From NCBI GenBank assembly GCA_026134085.1, contig JAOQIN010000003.1:31335-95334 (forward strand): DNA of 64,000 nucleotides. The letters are read 5' to 3'. The stretch's first letter is position 1. Each line of letters opens with the position of its first letter. Source of the stretch: Candidatus Methanoxibalbensis ujae (GTDB taxonomy: Archaea; Halobacteriota; Syntropharchaeia; Alkanophagales; Methanospirareceae). This document shows positions 128-42,488 of the stretch, piece by piece. The position numbers and the translations under genes are program-made. Under the pieces are notes generated by a model. The model ran no database searches. It saw nothing but the letters and a program-made list of their open reading frames with translations, and was not told the origin of the DNA.

Positions 128-1594
128 TTACTCATATTTATCCCTCAATTTACTCTTACTCATTTGATCAGGCTTTCTGAAGTTCGCAGTGTAATTCTTT
201 TTCCTGCCGCAGCTCTCAATGAATTCAAAGCCCTGCTTTTCAGCCAACAAACGGACAACCGGCAAAGGTAAAAAGTCAGGGTCTCCCGGCTGTTCTGTGA
301 TGGATAATAAACCGGAGGGTTTTAAGACTCTGTATATAGCACCCAAACACCTTTCCTTATCTGAAACTTCACCTAAAACTGCAACGAGAAAGACAACATC
401 AAATTCATTCTCATCAAACGGAAGATCAACAGCATCTCCCTGAGTAAATCCAACATTATGCAGACCCGCCGACTGAATCTTACGACGTGCTTTTTCAAGC
501 ATCTCTTTTTGCAAGTCAAACAATTCCAGATGTCCCTGCGGTATGCGCCGTGCAACTTCAACACTGAAGTAGCCGGGACCAGGACCTATCTCAAGCACAT
601 TGAAATCCTCTTTGAGATGAAGCCTATCAGCCAGCTTCTGGGGAGAAAGAATAAGTCTCCGCAAAGGAAAATCCAACCAGAAGGATATTTGAGAGGGATA
701 AGTCCCCTTGCCGAAAAAACGCCTTAGGATCCCCTTCTCCGCTGATCTCATTTGGCAGCCTCTTATACGGGTCAAAGTTTTCGGTCCAAAAATGAGCGTT
801 ATTACCACTGATAAAATAATAATCAAAATCAGACTGTATAGCCTGCCCTGCTCTGTCAATGGAATGAGATTTCCACTGAAATTGCACATGAAGTGAAAAA
901 GTATAGCGGAGAGAGTGCTGCGGTTGGTGTTGTTGTAAATCCAGGTGAATAGAATTGAAAGAAAGATTGGGCTGAAAATAAACGTCCAGAAATCCAATGT
1001 GCCAAATTTTAACACATCGTGCTGCCACTGTCCTTTCATGAAGAAAAGGGGAAGATGCCACAATGCCCATACCACGCCCAAGAGAAGGCTTGAGAAAAGG
1101 GCATTATACCTTGCCTGCAAGCCATCCAGAGCATAACCACGCCAGCCCAGCTCTTCTGGTAATGGTCCATAGAGCAGGATAAAAACGGCAAAAGGAAGAA
1201 TTCTCCATGGTTCAAACAGCAGATTTCTGGCTGTTTCAAACTCAGGCCACGGTGAGCCTGCAAGAACGCTTAACAGAAGGGCAAGAGTGTTCAGCACAGG
1301 AAATGTGAGCCAGATGACCAGATGCCATCTTTTACCAATCCGCCTGATGTCAAATACACGCTGCCAGTAATCTCTCCATTCTTCTTTATCGTGGGTGCGA
1401 GAGATTAAGATGATTTCCGCAATTGCAGGGCCGAACAACCCAAGGGCACCGAGAACTATTGCTGGGAATGTAAAGACATTCCAGCCCAGCAATATAACCC
1501 ATATCCAGAAGAACCATGAAATGCCAAGGGCCAGAGTAAAAAACCGCCATGGATTTGCAGCTTTTGAGTTTTTTGTGCTCATTATTTTATCCAT
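128..1594 (-). CDS. CPBP-family intramembrane protease fused to a class I SAM methyltransferase
   Basis: This 488-residue protein has two parts. Residues 1-275 are a multi-pass membrane domain with the CPBP/Abi signature: EELGWRG (glutamates and arginine of motif 1, about residues 147-153), WALWH (motif 2 histidine) and HFMCN (motif 3). CPBP proteins are metal-dependent intramembrane proteases or presumed proteases. Residues 300-480 are a soluble methyltransferase with the SAM-binding motif EIGPGPGYFS and the acidic motif ELFD. The fusion is a single open frame, so either a membrane-tethered methyltransferase or a recent join is possible. A Shine-Dalgarno (AGGAGAGGAG) precedes the ATG. It is the distal gene of cassette 1, 25 nt after the GxGD-protease candidate. 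Substrates are unknown. Confidence 0.8.
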   Translation of the reverse strand: MDKIMSTKNSKAANPWRFFTLALGISWFFWIWVILLGWNVFTFPAIVLGALGLFGPAIAEIILISRTHDKEEWRDYWQRVFDIRRIGKRWHLVIWLTFPVLNTLALLLSVLAGSPWPEFETARNLLFEPWRILPFAVFILLYGPLPEELGWRGYALDGLQARYNALFSSLLLGVVWALWHLPLFFMKGQWQHDVLKFGTLDFWTFIFSPIFLSILFTWIYNNTNRSTLSAILFHFMCNFSGNLIPLTEQGRLYSLILIIILSVVITLIFGPKTLTRIRGCQMRSAEKGILRRFFGKGTYPSQISFWLDFPLRRLILSPQKLADRLHLKEDFNVLEIGPGPGYFSVEVARRIPQGHLELFDLQKEMLEKARRKIQSAGLHNVGFTQGDAVDLPFDENEFDVVFLVAVLGEVSDKERCLGAIYRVLKPSGLLSITEQPGDPDFLPLPVVRLLAEKQGFEFIESCGRKKNYTANFRKPDQMSKSKLRDKYE

Positions 1595-2508: not shown

Positions 2509-3291
2509 CTACCATATTAAAATCTCCCCATATGTTATTTTTGTCCCCTTTTCAGCAGTTTTTGTTTTTTTAAGTATTATTTTGCGTATATGTCTTAAAT
2601 ATTCTTCTCTGAATATCACAAATCCATTATCAAATTTAATGAAATTTTTATTGAACACATCTAACGCATTTTTGCATTTTACCTTGGTAGTTTCTCTTAC
2701 GCGAGGATTCAAAATTTTACTTTTTAATTCATTTACATCAATAACTAGGTATGGAACTTCCACAACAATATCGGCATGAGTTTGTTGCCTTTTCGTAAAT
2801 CTACGATTCGAGGCTTCTCGCCTATAAGACACTTTTTTAACCTGAATAGCGATTTTTATTTTGTTTAATTCCACAATCGCGTCTATTCCCATCATGTCCA
2901 ATTCTGCGGACGAGATTAATTTTTCTTTAAAAAGAGCATTCCATAGGTATTGAAAATGAAACTGGGTAAGAATTGACATCCATATACGATACAACCTTGC
3001 TTTAAATCCCTCTTCAACAAATTGCAAAGAGCATCCATAAAAATACTTTTTTATAAAGTCATAGATATAAGGGTTGAGTTTTTCTCTCCAATAGATCTTA
3101 AAAATTTCATCATAATCCTTAAAATCAGTAGAATCCCAATAATATTTATAGTATATTTCAAGAGGTAACAATTCTCGTGGCAAATCCCGCTCAACAGTTT
3201 TTATTTGTCTCAGATGTGCATATTTTTGTACCTCTATGTTTTTGAGAAAATCTACGAGTTTCTTTAAGTCTACTTTCCAGTTTCTTACCAT
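2509..3291 (-). CDS. TaqI-like type II restriction endonuclease
   Basis: The 260-residue protein contains a PD-(D/E)xK-like core at about residues 128-152, DMMGIDAIVEL followed by IAIQVKKVSYRREA. This block resembles the catalytic block of the TaqI endonuclease family, in which Asp and the Q-x-K residues bind the metal. It starts inside the last codons of the methyltransferase gene (7-nt overlap), so the two form an R-M operon within one cassette. By analogy with TaqI it would cut a short palindrome containing TCGA, but specificity cannot be read from the sequence. Length is close to TaqI (about 263 residues). It is intact, unlike several other cassette genes. Confidence 0.75.
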   Translation of the reverse strand: MVRNWKVDLKKLVDFLKNIEVQKYAHLRQIKTVERDLPRELLPLEIYYKYYWDSTDFKDYDEIFKIYWREKLNPYIYDFIKKYFYGCSLQFVEEGFKARLYRIWMSILTQFHFQYLWNALFKEKLISSAELDMMGIDAIVELNKIKIAIQVKKVSYRREASNRRFTKRQQTHADIVVEVPYLVIDVNELKSKILNPRVRETTKVKCKNALDVFNKNFIKFDNGFVIFREEYLRHIRKIILKKTKTAEKGTKITYGEILIW

Positions 3292-4643
3292 AATAACACC
3301 TCTTTTAATTTTTTAAGTTCTTTTTTTGCAGGCAAAGGAAGCAATTTTAATTGTGTTATATTGAAATGATAAGTTATATCCCTAAACACATCCTTTACAT
3401 ATTTTTTTATTATTTTTGAATTCAAAAATTCAACTACTTCTTCATCAGTGAGATCAAATTGCATATTTGTCAAAGTATGCTTTCTCAATAAATGATAAAC
3501 ATCACCCATCCACGGATACGCCCTGTAATCATATGCAGCACCTACTTGTCCATCTCCCCTGAAACCCAAGCCAACGACTATGTGCGGTTTGTCAAAAAAC
3601 TTTCTTAACTTTGTTTTTTTATTTCTATCTATCCAATATCCAGTCACAGCTTTATAAATCACTTCACCTATTTTCAAGTTCCTCCCATTGAGAACTGGAA
3701 GTAAGTTGTCCTTATTTATTTCCTTTGCCCTGATGATCTCTGAATTATGTTTTATCTCCGGTGTTCTTGGCGATATCTTTATTGTGTATATATCGCCAAC
3801 TCTATAACTGCAAATTTCATCAACCTTCCTGCTAAATTCTGTGGAGAATGACACAACTTCTCCTTTCCAACTGTCATTTCTTGTAATCAGTTTTGGGCTG
3901 CCATTGTTATAATCAAACAACCTCAGCTTACCCCTTTCTGATCTTGTTTTTACAAATTTTAAAACGACAGTAGTCACGTCTGCCTCTGGTTTAAAAACCT
4001 CACCACCCATATATACAAGTTCAATTTCACCTCTTGAAGCGAGAAAACTACGAAGTTTTTTGAACTCATCGAGAATCATGAATGTTGCAGGAACAATAAA
4101 TATAAGTTGGCCATTTTCTTTTAATAATTTTACAGACTTTTCTATGAATGCTCCATAGACATTGTATTTTCCATACCAGGTTTCATATATTTCTTTATAT
4201 TTTCTTTTTGTCTCATTATCTACACGAATGGTATAATGCTCTGATAAGCTTGGAATACCATAGGGTGGATTTCCTATGATTATGTCAAATTTTTCGTCTG
4301 TCTCCCATAGTAAATAATCACTGTGAATGATTTTTATATCCTGTGCGAGGTTGCTCTCATTTATATAATCAATCACCTCTTTATTAATTTCTACACCTAT
4401 TTTTGGGGAGGAATTTTCAAAAATATGCCTCTTAATTCTTTTGATCCCAGACAAAAACTGACAGATTCCGCATGCTGGTTCAAGGATCTTAGCAGTTTGA
4501 GGCAACTCATTTTCATTTATTAGATTTACCATAAAATCAACTATCCACTGAGGCGTGAAAAAAATACCCCAATCTCTCTTTATATGTTTGATTTTGTTGT
4601 TTACTACATTTGCATGAGCCTCAACCTTTGTACTATCCATCAT
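3285..4643 (-). CDS. TaqI-like N6-adenine DNA methyltransferase
   Basis: The 452-residue protein has N6-adenine methyltransferase motifs in gamma-class order: FFTPQWIVDFMV (motif X), ILEPACGICQFL (motif I, SAM binding), and IIGNPPYGIPS (motif IV, catalytic NPPY). The C-terminal half contains the TaqI-type target-recognition region, ending near ITYHFNITQLKLLPLP. It would protect host DNA from the endonuclease encoded immediately downstream. The start is ATG at 4643, preceded by AAGGAAGATC. It is the first gene of cassette 2. R-M systems are known integron cargo and can stabilise arrays by addiction; that role here is inference. Confidence 0.85.
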   Translation of the reverse strand: MMDSTKVEAHANVVNNKIKHIKRDWGIFFTPQWIVDFMVNLINENELPQTAKILEPACGICQFLSGIKRIKRHIFENSSPKIGVEINKEVIDYINESNLAQDIKIIHSDYLLWETDEKFDIIIGNPPYGIPSLSEHYTIRVDNETKRKYKEIYETWYGKYNVYGAFIEKSVKLLKENGQLIFIVPATFMILDEFKKLRSFLASRGEIELVYMGGEVFKPEADVTTVVLKFVKTRSERGKLRLFDYNNGSPKLITRNDSWKGEVVSFSTEFSRKVDEICSYRVGDIYTIKISPRTPEIKHNSEIIRAKEINKDNLLPVLNGRNLKIGEVIYKAVTGYWIDRNKKTKLRKFFDKPHIVVGLGFRGDGQVGAAYDYRAYPWMGDVYHLLRKHTLTNMQFDLTDEEVVEFLNSKIIKKYVKDVFRDITYHFNITQLKLLPLPAKKELKKLKEVLLW

Positions 4644-6737: not shown

Positions 6738-6806
6738 GCTTAACGTTTCGCGGATAAAAGACGAAGGCTTGGAAATCTTTGATTTCACTTTTATCCGCTG
6801 TTGGGC
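6738..6806 (-). repeat. attC-like site D (best consensus)
   Basis: The outer boxes are GCTTAAC (6738-6744) and GTTGGGC (6800-6806); read on the minus strand they are GCCCAAC and GTTAAGC, both perfect fits to RYYYAAC and GTTRRRY. The inner stem is a perfect 11-bp pair, GCGGATAAAAG with CTTTTATCCGC. The spacers are asymmetric: 5 nt on the low-coordinate side and 1 nt on the other, as in sites A and H. An internal GAAATC/GATTTC hairpin is shared with site A. Confidence 0.8.
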
Positions 6807-9961: not shown

Positions 9962-10046
9962 GCCTAACGTTTTGCGGACATACGAAGTTCTGCTTTGCGA
10001 AATTTGGGCGTAGCCGAAGGCGAAGCCACATATCCGCCTGTTGTCC
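9962..10046 (-). repeat. attC-like site E
   Basis: The outer boxes are GCCTAAC (9962-9968, perfect RYYYAAC) and GTTGTCC (10040-10046). The inner stem is GCGGA(CA)TA with TATCCGC. The GAAGT-hairpin-TTTGGG element and a second hairpin (GCC GAA GGC) lie inside. The left box (minus GTTAGGC) resembles the right box of site D (GTTGGGC, 6/7), and the right box equals the left box of site F, but E's own two boxes do not match each other. Confidence 0.75.
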
Positions 10047-10551: not shown

Positions 10552-10649
10552 GGACAACGTCTGGGGCGTATGCGGAGTTGCGGAGCGAAGCGACGCAATT
10601 TGGGTGTAGCGACCATAAGGGGGCAAAACCGCATACGCACCTGTTGTCC
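10552..10649 (-). repeat. attC-like site F
   Basis: The outer boxes are GGACAAC (10552-10558) and GTTGTCC (10643-10649). The inner stem GCGTATGCGG with CCGCATACGC is perfect over 10 bp. The left box matches the right box of site E over nine bases (GTTGTCCGA), and the right box matches the left box of site G over the same nine bases. Confidence 0.75.
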
Positions 10650-10693: not shown

Positions 10694-11095
10694 TCATATT
10701 TTTTCTTCCTCCATCCATATTTTAAGATAGCTTTTTAACGTTTGAACGAAATTTTTGGCAGTTTCTAACATATCTCTTGCCTCTCCTTCAGTGACGATAA
10801 AACCTATGCCGTAATCCCCTATCAATCTTTTATCATAGGCATCGTTAAGCGTTTTCCTCAAACCTCTATCAAAAATTCCTGTTTTTATAAAGTGTTCTCC
10901 AAATAAACTTATCCAAATAAACCTATCACTCCTTTATGAGAAGAAGCACTCAAGTTCTTGGTAAGAAGTGCCGCTTCTGCCATGAAAAACATCGCATAAT
11001 AGTTGAAACACAGGAATCGTAATCTCCAATATTAAGGGTTTGTTCTGCTGTTTTTAGAAATTTCCTTTTTCTATGAAATCCTTTATCTCCTTCAT
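10694..11095 (-). pseudogene. HEPN-domain gene, broken by at least three frameshifts
   Basis: Fragments in three frames reassemble into a HEPN domain protein: [17 protein letters not shown], then [16 protein letters not shown] and [16 protein letters not shown], ending in EGEARDMLETAKNFVQTL. Frame changes occur after the first ten codons and again near the YYA block. A third comes from a 14-bp tandem duplication (tccaaataaactta, about 10907-10934). The start codon overlaps the stop of the upstream nucleotidyltransferase gene (ATGA), the classic MNT-HEPN toxin-antitoxin layout in which HEPN is the RNase toxin. The toxin half seems inactivated while the MNT frame is intact. Confidence 0.75.
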
Positions 11096-11412
11096 ATCCT
11101 TATCCCCTCTTTCCTCACATTTATTACAAATGGATAATTATAGTTTTCAAAGAAGGTCTTAGGAAGAGCAATAACCGAAACAAGTTCTCCCTTCTCAAGT
11201 AATATGTCAAACAGAAGGTCACTCAAACTTCTCCTCACCTCAAAGGGATCAATTGAATCATCAATGAGCACAAGTAAATCTATGTCTGAATCTTTTGTCG
11301 CTTCGCCTCTCGCATGAGAACCATAAAGAATAATCTTTTTAATCTTATCTCTATATCTTTCTATCAGATGACATTTCACTTGATTTACCAGTTGAGTTAT
11401 TCTCTTATCCAT
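11092..11412 (-). CDS. MNT-type minimal nucleotidyltransferase (antitoxin-like)
   Basis: The 106-residue protein shows the minimal nucleotidyltransferase signature GSHARGEATKDSDIDLLV (GS-x9-DxD). In MNT-HEPN modules this enzyme neutralises the HEPN toxin, in known cases by adenylylating it. The third acidic residue of the fold is not obvious. It is the first gene of cassette 6 and overlaps the broken HEPN gene by 4 nt. Confidence 0.8.
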   Translation of the reverse strand: MDKRITQLVNQVKCHLIERYRDKIKKIILYGSHARGEATKDSDIDLLVLIDDSIDPFEVRRSLSDLLFDILLEKGELVSVIALPKTFFENYNYPFVINVRKEGIRI

Positions 11413-11445: not shown

Positions 11446-11519
11446 GGACAACGTTCTGGTATGTGAAGTTTTGCCTTGCGAAATTTGCACGAGCGTTAGC
11501 GAGCCACCTCCTGTTAGCA
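11446..11519 (-). repeat. attC-like site G
   Basis: The outer boxes are GGACAAC (11446-11452) and GTTAGCA (11513-11519). The GAAGT-hairpin (TTTTGC/GCGAAA)-TTTG element and a second hairpin (GCG TTA GC) lie inside; the outer stem is weaker than in D or F. The left box equals the right box of site F over nine bases. Confidence 0.65.
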
Positions 11520-12551: not shown

Positions 12552-12636
12552 ATCTAACATATCGCAAATATGCGAAGTTTGGCGTAAGCCAAATTTGGCA
12601 ATCTTTGATTGCGAAACCACATATTTGCTGTTATGT
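12552..12636 (-). repeat. attC-like site H
   Basis: The outer boxes are ATCTAAC (12552-12558, perfect RYYYAAC) and GTTATGT (12630-12636). The inner stem GCAAATATG pairs perfectly with CATATTTGC. Two internal hairpins are TTTGGC/GCCAAA and GCAATC/GATTGC. The right box equals the left box of site I (GTTATGTC, 8/8) and differs from its own left box (GTTAGAT). Confidence 0.8.
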
Positions 12637-41383: not shown

Positions 41384-41520
41384 CCTCTCCAGCCCTCCAG
41401 CTCTCCAGCCCTCCAGCGGATCCCTTCATGGCATCATCGTGGCACCCTCATGGCATCATCGTGGCACCATCATGGCATCATCGTGGCACCATCATGGCAT
41501 CATCATGGCATCATGGCATC
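41384..41520. repeat. Tandem repeats between convergent dnaG and thiolase genes
   Basis: A ctctccagccctccagc unit is doubled at 41384-41417. Then a 22-bp unit (catggcatcatcgtggcaccat) occurs three full times from 41427 to 41492, followed by shortened copies spaced 11 and 8 bp, running into the last codons of the thiolase gene. Confidence 0.85.
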
Positions 41521-42488
41521 ATTCTCCGCCACATCTTGCCCCCGGCATCACGCACAATTCGTGCTCTCAGCTTGCAGAATGCGCACACATCGGATGATGA
41601 GACTTCACCGCACACACTGCACACACCGCACACGCCTCTTTCCCCAATGGTCTCCTCAGATGATGCCTCAGATGCGAGTTTTGCGATGCCCCTCACGAAA
41701 TTTTGCGTAAATCCTGTTTTTCTTCTCTCTATTTCGCGAACTATGTCCTTCCAATCATCTCTGTGTGGTGCGAAAGGGCATCTGTCCTCAAGCAATGGCA
41801 GATTTTCCGCACTGACATAGAGCCTGTTCTCCTCCTCCGTGCGCTCAAAAAGAGGGCGTGCTTTCGTCACAACGGATTCTGCGAATGATTCTGCTCTCGG
41901 CTTGAACTTCAGGATCCATGATATATTTCCGCCAACGATATTTTTCAGCGCAAATGCAGCAATATCATCAGATGTGTGCCCGGTGACGACGACATCAAAG
42001 CCGTGCATGCGTGCTGTCCGATTCATTATATATCGCTTGGCTGTTCCACATGCAGCACATCGCTTCCGCATGCGAGCATCTTTTATCGTAAATCCGAAAT
42101 CCGCAAGATTCACTGTGAGAAGAGGCATCTCAATCATTTCTGAGAGCTCTTTCACAACTTTCTCCGCTCTGTCTGAGTATTCACCAGTGCCCAGGTTTAT
42201 GTGGAGCATCTCAAGCGACCAGTTGAAATCATTTATTTTTTTGAGCACATGTGCAAGCGCTACACTGTCCTTCCCTCCTGAAACAGCAATGAGAACACGC
42301 TCATTTTCTCGCAATATGCAATGTCTCTTTATGCTCCGTCTGACAAGCGCCTCATAAAACCGAGGATAACATGCCTCACATAGAGAAATGCGATATGTCC
42401 TGAATGTTGTCACCGCAGGCTTGCCACATTTGTCACATCTCACATCTCGCATGCCTCCCCTTTCCTCTGCTTTCTTTTCTTCTTCCAC
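41511..42488 (-). CDS. tRNA 2-thiolation enzyme, TtuA/Ncs6 family
   Basis: The 325-residue protein has an N-terminal zinc finger (CDKCGKPA...CEAC), the PP-loop ATPase motif AVSGGKDSVAL, the Fe-S/zinc cysteine pair CAACGTAKRY, and a C-terminal zinc finger (CSVCGEVSSSDVCAFC). This is the layout of TtuA/NcsA enzymes that adenylate and thiolate tRNA uridine 54 or 34. Which position is modified cannot be told. Repeats at 41.4 kb reach its last codons. GTG 42488 is the assumed start; ATG 42452 is an alternative. Confidence 0.88.
   Translation of the reverse strand: MEEEKKAEERGGMRDVRCDKCGKPAVTTFRTYRISLCEACYPRFYEALVRRSIKRHCILRENERVLIAVSGGKDSVALAHVLKKINDFNWSLEMLHINLGTGEYSDRAEKVVKELSEMIEMPLLTVNLADFGFTIKDARMRKRCAACGTAKRYIMNRTARMHGFDVVVTGHTSDDIAAFALKNIVGGNISWILKFKPRAESFAESVVTKARPLFERTEEENRLYVSAENLPLLEDRCPFAPHRDDWKDIVREIERRKTGFTQNFVRGIAKLASEASSEETIGERGVCGVCSVCGEVSSSDVCAFCKLRARIVRDAGGKMWRRMMP

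Follow-up and report, generated by a model that had tools for sequence, protein, structure and literature searches.

A recurrent fusion of a CPBP membrane protease domain and a methyltransferase domain in a putative integron cassette of archaea and bacteria

A gene of Candidatus Methanoxibalbensis ujae codes for a single chain in which a CPBP membrane domain is followed by a class I SAM methyltransferase domain. We have analyzed the stretch of 64,000 nucleotides which contains it (contig JAOQIN010000003.1, positions 31,335 to 95,334), called here the window. As a whole, the best explanation, which we consider probable, is a real two-domain gene of an archaeal chromosome, carried by an integron cassette, that has spread between domains of life and codes for a membrane-tethered processing enzyme. 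We are highly confident of the anatomy and mobility of the fusion; its function is discussed separately.

The fusion gene

The main features are listed in Table 1. The Rce1-like family PF02517 matches residues 130–239 (58.8 bits, Pfam cut-off 22.4), and the Methyltransf_31, 25 and 11 families match residues 328–434, with up to 79.8 bits (cut-off 27). The catalytic motifs are complete in both domains; in the CPBP domain, EExxxR appears as EELGWR (residues 147–152), WxxxH as WALWH (176–180) and HxxxN as HFMCN (234–238). These motifs are retained in three other fusions (L010, L011 and L012) and in a CPBP protein without methyltransferase (L014). Residues 271–488 are soluble according to a hydropathy scan. 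An AlphaFold2 model from five input sequences has a pLDDT of 35, too poor for the domain interface.

The first-pass annotation had read one frame of 488 codons with both domains, giving no strand; the frame is on the minus strand. This frame is real, as both Pfam matches are above their cut-offs and independent intact copies are found. The single-chain combination is genuine and recurrent, with the active-site motifs of the CPBP domain intact. Its domain architecture is new, although both the families and the kind of platform are known; the literature searched contains no described CPBP–methyltransferase fusion.

Table 1. Features of the fusion gene and its attC array. Positions refer to the window.
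Feature	Position	Strand	Description	Evidence
CPBP–methyltransferase fusion gene	128–1594	minus	488 codons, 488 aa, ATG start	Pfam, homologues
CPBP/Rce1-like membrane domain	755–1594	minus	residues 1–280	Pfam, catalytic motifs
Variable interdomain linker	698–769	minus	residues 276–299; contains the G029/G201 breakpoint	
Class I SAM methyltransferase domain	131–751	minus	residues 282–488; motif I LEIGPGPG at 334	
Second gene of the cassette	1620–2309	minus	229-aa protein, about five hydrophobic segments	
attC downstream of the fusion	1–71	minus	whole site −11 to 71 (contig C23, 31323–31405)	pattern scan, covariance model
attC upstream of the two-gene cassette	2367–2436	minus		covariance model
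attC	6738–6806	minus		pattern scan, covariance model
attC	9962–10046	minus		covariance model
attC	10552–10649	minus		pattern scan, covariance model
attC	11446–11519	minus	weaker match	covariance model
attC	12552–12636	minus		pattern scan, covariance model

A putative integron cassette

Seven attC sites are found in the first 12.6 kb of the window, in an array whose genes are on the minus strand. The sites were discovered with a pattern scan; eleven sites were aligned, and a covariance model was searched with cmsearch. In this alignment 86.6% of the cells pair, with double-sided changes in 11 of 17 pairs, and pairing falls to 23–45% when the partner is slid by one to three columns. The sites have pairing R''/R' and L''/L' arms and a GTT crossover. 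The model gives 38 matches in the window genome, and attC sites are also present beside the homologues L010, L011, L015 and L062; some of the sites it finds in the window or beside these homologues were in its seed set. No attC family was matched in Rfam. By its attC features, the fusion gene, which lies within the array, appears to be part of an integron gene cassette. This would be a two-gene cassette, since both the fusion and a gene for a 229-aa membrane protein are placed between the first two attC sites.

The 229-aa protein has no confident match in Pfam, NCBIfam or PDB, and its AlphaFold2 model (single sequence) has a pLDDT of 53. A GIGD motif at residue 157 suggested a presenilin-like protease, which is unsupported by these three databases. 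The two-gene cassette is intact only in the window. Genome G026 has a decayed copy of both genes in the same arrangement, whose upstream part is 93% identical in nucleotides over 560 bp.

Some other features of the region may be mentioned. The cassettes of L010, L011, L015 and the window end with GGCGGGGTTCGG before attC and CCGAACCCCGCC after it, which form an outer inverted repeat around attC. A TaqI-type restriction endonuclease and its methylase (2509–4643) are found in the same array, as well as an MNT-like nucleotidyltransferase (11092–11412; PADLOC PDC-S09, 108 bits). A tandem repeat with an 11-base unit is located at 41423–41532.

Distribution in archaea and bacteria

One genome per species was scanned for homologues. 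The fusion is not unique to the window assembly: intact copies, with 64–82% amino acid identity, are found in four other genomes, both archaeal and bacterial, which belong to unrelated phyla. These are MAGs of Thermoplasmata (L010), Desulfofervidaceae (L011) and Nitrospirae (L012), and a genome of the window's own family (L059, genome G029). Intact fusions are thus known in five genomes of several phyla; they differ in linker length and the frame is kept in each of them. Broken or partial copies are present in at least seven further genomes. The isolate Thermodesulfobacterium DSM 14290 has a copy with one stop and 87.8% nucleotide identity; other cases are Thermococcaceae (L013), Archaeoglobus (L015), G344, G026 and G009. 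The Archaeoglobus copy (L015:4001–5416) has frameshifts and an inverted internal segment (CPBP residues 170–255); the same locus is found in L063 and in G265. Broken copies are about as many as intact ones, so the function is dispensable. Judged from their names only, the carriers largely correspond to hydrothermal or thermophilic groups.

The two domains are also found apart. Cassettes L014 and L062 have CPBP without methyltransferase, Marinitoga (L016) has only a broken CPBP, and L087 and L090 are standalone methyltransferases. The related methyltransferase of L090 has an N-terminal hydrophobic segment of its own, as read by eye. No fusion relatives were matched in viral contigs or phages. 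All relatives in plasmids have less than 60% identity and none spans 80% of the query.

The window contig is archaeal, as it contains the core genes DnaG (549.7 bits, cut-off 300), SepS (748.6 bits, cut-off 380.65) and RfcL, which passes one of its cut-offs. On the other hand, the CPBP part of the G344 copy, 93% identical to the window in nucleotides over 857 bp, is located between the bacterial core genes rsmI and queA. Mis-binning therefore cannot explain this distribution. These sequences show horizontal spread of the fusion across the two domains, archaea and bacteria.

Most carriers are MAGs, as is the window genome itself, which would favor an artefact of assembly or binning. Such an origin is practically negligible: independent assemblies carry the fusion, which already refutes it and makes a local frameshift error untenable, an isolate has it as well, although its copy is interrupted, host core genes flank the copies, and the fusion is under purifying selection.

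Selection and modularity

In the intact fusions, dN/dS is about 0.07–0.22 in both the CPBP and the methyltransferase domains, where dS is unsaturated. In the linker, with few codons, the values lie between 0.1 and 0.8. Purifying selection acts on both domains, and the linker is loosely constrained.

The histories of the two domains are partly different. Between the window and L010, the methyltransferase has 91% amino acid identity (dS 0.46) and the CPBP domain 77% (dS 0.87); between L011 and L059/G029, dS is 0.55 in the methyltransferase and 3.2 in the CPBP domain. In a phylogenetic tree, the CPBP domain of G029 groups with that of G201, which has no methyltransferase (support 100/99), apart from the CPBP domains of other fusions. 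The fusion pair is thus found in two separate CPBP clades. G029 and G201, of one genus, have the same locus, with 97–99% nucleotide identity from the upstream gene to the end of the CPBP domain. Divergence begins at the linker: G201 has a stop followed by attC, and G029 continues into the methyltransferase. Joining or separation of the domains at the linker has occurred repeatedly; for G029 and G201, the comparison is compatible with either gain or loss.

In five genomes of a distant genus (L070, L149–L153; the family of G092), a CPBP gene immediately precedes the gene of a related methyltransferase. In this family, the related methyltransferase has no adjoining CPBP in 25 of 30 loci and the adjacency is confined to one genus, so it is a weak independent hint of linkage.

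Possible function

The first-pass annotation considered a processing enzyme in a single chain conceivable, with an Rce1-type CPBP protease followed by a carboxyl methyltransferase. In a CAAX-type pathway, such an enzyme would cleave the AAX residues and then methylate the carboxyl group of a prenylated cysteine. Part of this proposal stands: the fusion is recurrent, the CPBP motifs are intact, and the closest solved relative of the CPBP domain is MmRce1 (PDB 4cad, NF041656), which aligns with residues 12–266 (E 8e-32) and has EExxxR, aromatic-xxxH and HxxxN in common with it. The order of activities also fits. The prenyl-CAAX pathway, however, is unsupported. The fusion adds a C-terminal methyltransferase to what is found in MmRce1, and its CPBP part has 116.8 bits with the equivalog NF041656, whose cut-off is 425. 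ICMT (PF04140), the enzyme which would act after Rce1, has an integral membrane fold; the methyltransferase of the fusion is a soluble class I enzyme unrelated to it, and its Pfam matches, taken to E 0.1, do not include PF04140. In six carrier genomes (the window genome is 89% complete), no alpha repeats of a protein prenyltransferase (PF01239) exceed the cut-off. For these three reasons, the equivalog score, the missing ICMT match and the missing prenyltransferase repeats, prenyl-CAAX chemistry is not supported and we consider it very unlikely. Cleavage followed by methylation is nevertheless conceivable for the fusion. A single gene of the ICMT family, which is broad, is found elsewhere in the window genome.

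The methyltransferase domain is similar to UbiE/ArsM-like class I SAM methyltransferases (Methyltransf_11, 25 and 31; PDB 3mgg and 3dh0), with the Rossmann core and motif I, and the solved proteins nearest to it are generic methyltransferases. Unlike them, it is joined to a membrane protease, and none of the 25 families listed gives an equivalog match above its cut-off. Other CPBP-fold proteins take part in the modification or sorting of membrane proteins, such as LnsA/LnsB in lipoprotein acylation and myxosortase (PMC7387801, PMC11980579); unlike the fusion, no methyltransferase domain is reported for them in the text consulted.

The cavity of MmRce1, a protein of eight helices, opens to the cytosol (PMC7248309). 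In the membrane, the CPBP domain would act as a glutamyl intramembrane protease whose active site is likewise open to the cytosol. If the topology of MmRce1 holds here, the methyltransferase, attached at the CPBP C-terminus, would face the cytosol, which contains SAM. A membrane-associated peptide or protein would be cleaved, and the product or a neighboring membrane-bound target would then be methylated. We infer that cleavage and methylation may act on one common substrate. A membrane-tethered enzyme which cleaves and methylates is the most likely function we can suggest, only as a tentative hypothesis. The broken copies, the CPBP-only cassettes and the 25 loci with no adjoining CPBP count against it.

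It is also quite possible that the fusion is neutral or a matter of convenience: two independent enzymes joined by loss of a stop codon in a cassette, with CPBP as a mere anchor and no coupling between their chemistries. The standalone CPBP and methyltransferase genes agree with this, as do the hydrophobic segment of the L090 methyltransferase and the loosely constrained linker. Against it, the pair is in frame in five genomes and in both CPBP clades, the catalytic residues of CPBP are conserved, and a similar pair is adjacent in another genus.

A role in immunity or defence, in which CPBP would degrade, or the methyltransferase inactivate, an incoming antimicrobial peptide or phage component, appears unlikely. 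Bacteriocin immunity is a known role of CPBP proteins, neighboring cassettes have a restriction-modification pair and a nucleotidyltransferase, and patchy presence with decay fits a defence gene. But the fusion does not specifically match any defence family, its sole PADLOC hit being a generic methyltransferase overlap with mad2, and relatives in phages or viruses are absent from our searches.

A candidate integrase of the related arrays

None of the 59 relatives has a canonical IntI above the cut-off. Several of them have a recombinase of 350–370 aa, which gives 253–255 bits with the XerA model (cut-off 220). Such recombinases, L049 among them, have 237 and 226 bits with the integron integrase model TIGR02249, below its cut-off of 265, and lack the IntI-specific insertion found in a real IntI (L080, 441 bits). 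Sequence comparison rules them out as canonical IntI, since the IntI-specific domain is absent. Their N-terminus has a weak HARP-like match below the cut-off.

In L100:9293–10378, L096, L101 and L109–L148, the XerA-type recombinase precedes a conserved palindromic attI-like site, with attC sites further on along the same strand. The attI-like sites, with eleven distinct examples, are short palindromes found right after the recombinase stop; they end in GTTR and their sequences differ beyond this point. An attC site is found within 1.5 kb of the recombinase in 9 of the 16 loci with downstream DNA. Several other loci, selected on the basis of attC previously identified on their contig, were kept out of this count. 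The chance expectation is about 0.007 per locus, in a test of its own which took 11 of 20 loci, including the selected ones. Five recombinases have no attC detected by the covariance model within about 9 kb. A decayed copy of the recombinase, with attC sites downstream, is found in contig C7 of the window genome (L099:7636–10062).

We consider it rather likely that the integrase which runs the related archaeal arrays is of XerA type and lacks the IntI-specific domain. Ghaly et al. 2022 (PMC9668308) described attC arrays in archaea, movement of cassettes between domains and arrays without integrase, all of which resemble our results; CAAX proteases or methyltransferases are unmentioned in the text of that paper. 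Their study required the IntI-specific domain, unlike the arrays described here, so XerA-type arrays would be scored as integrase-less. Within a partial coverage of the literature, we have found no paper describing a XerA-type integrase for such arrays.

Significance

The most far-reaching interpretation would combine these results: a cleave-and-methylate enzyme in one chain, carrying out a so far undescribed prokaryotic modification of membrane peptides and moved across the two domains of life as an integron cassette, with the XerA-type integrase running the related arrays. Taken in full, this combination is rather improbable.

In summary, this is a protein fusion, apparently borne by a cassette, which crosses domains of life and which one locus shows both joined and unjoined, each state being recent. 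It names a pair of enzymes whose coupling is testable. Some archaeal arrays which have been called integrase-less may in fact have an integrase, missed by tools which demand the IntI-specific domain.
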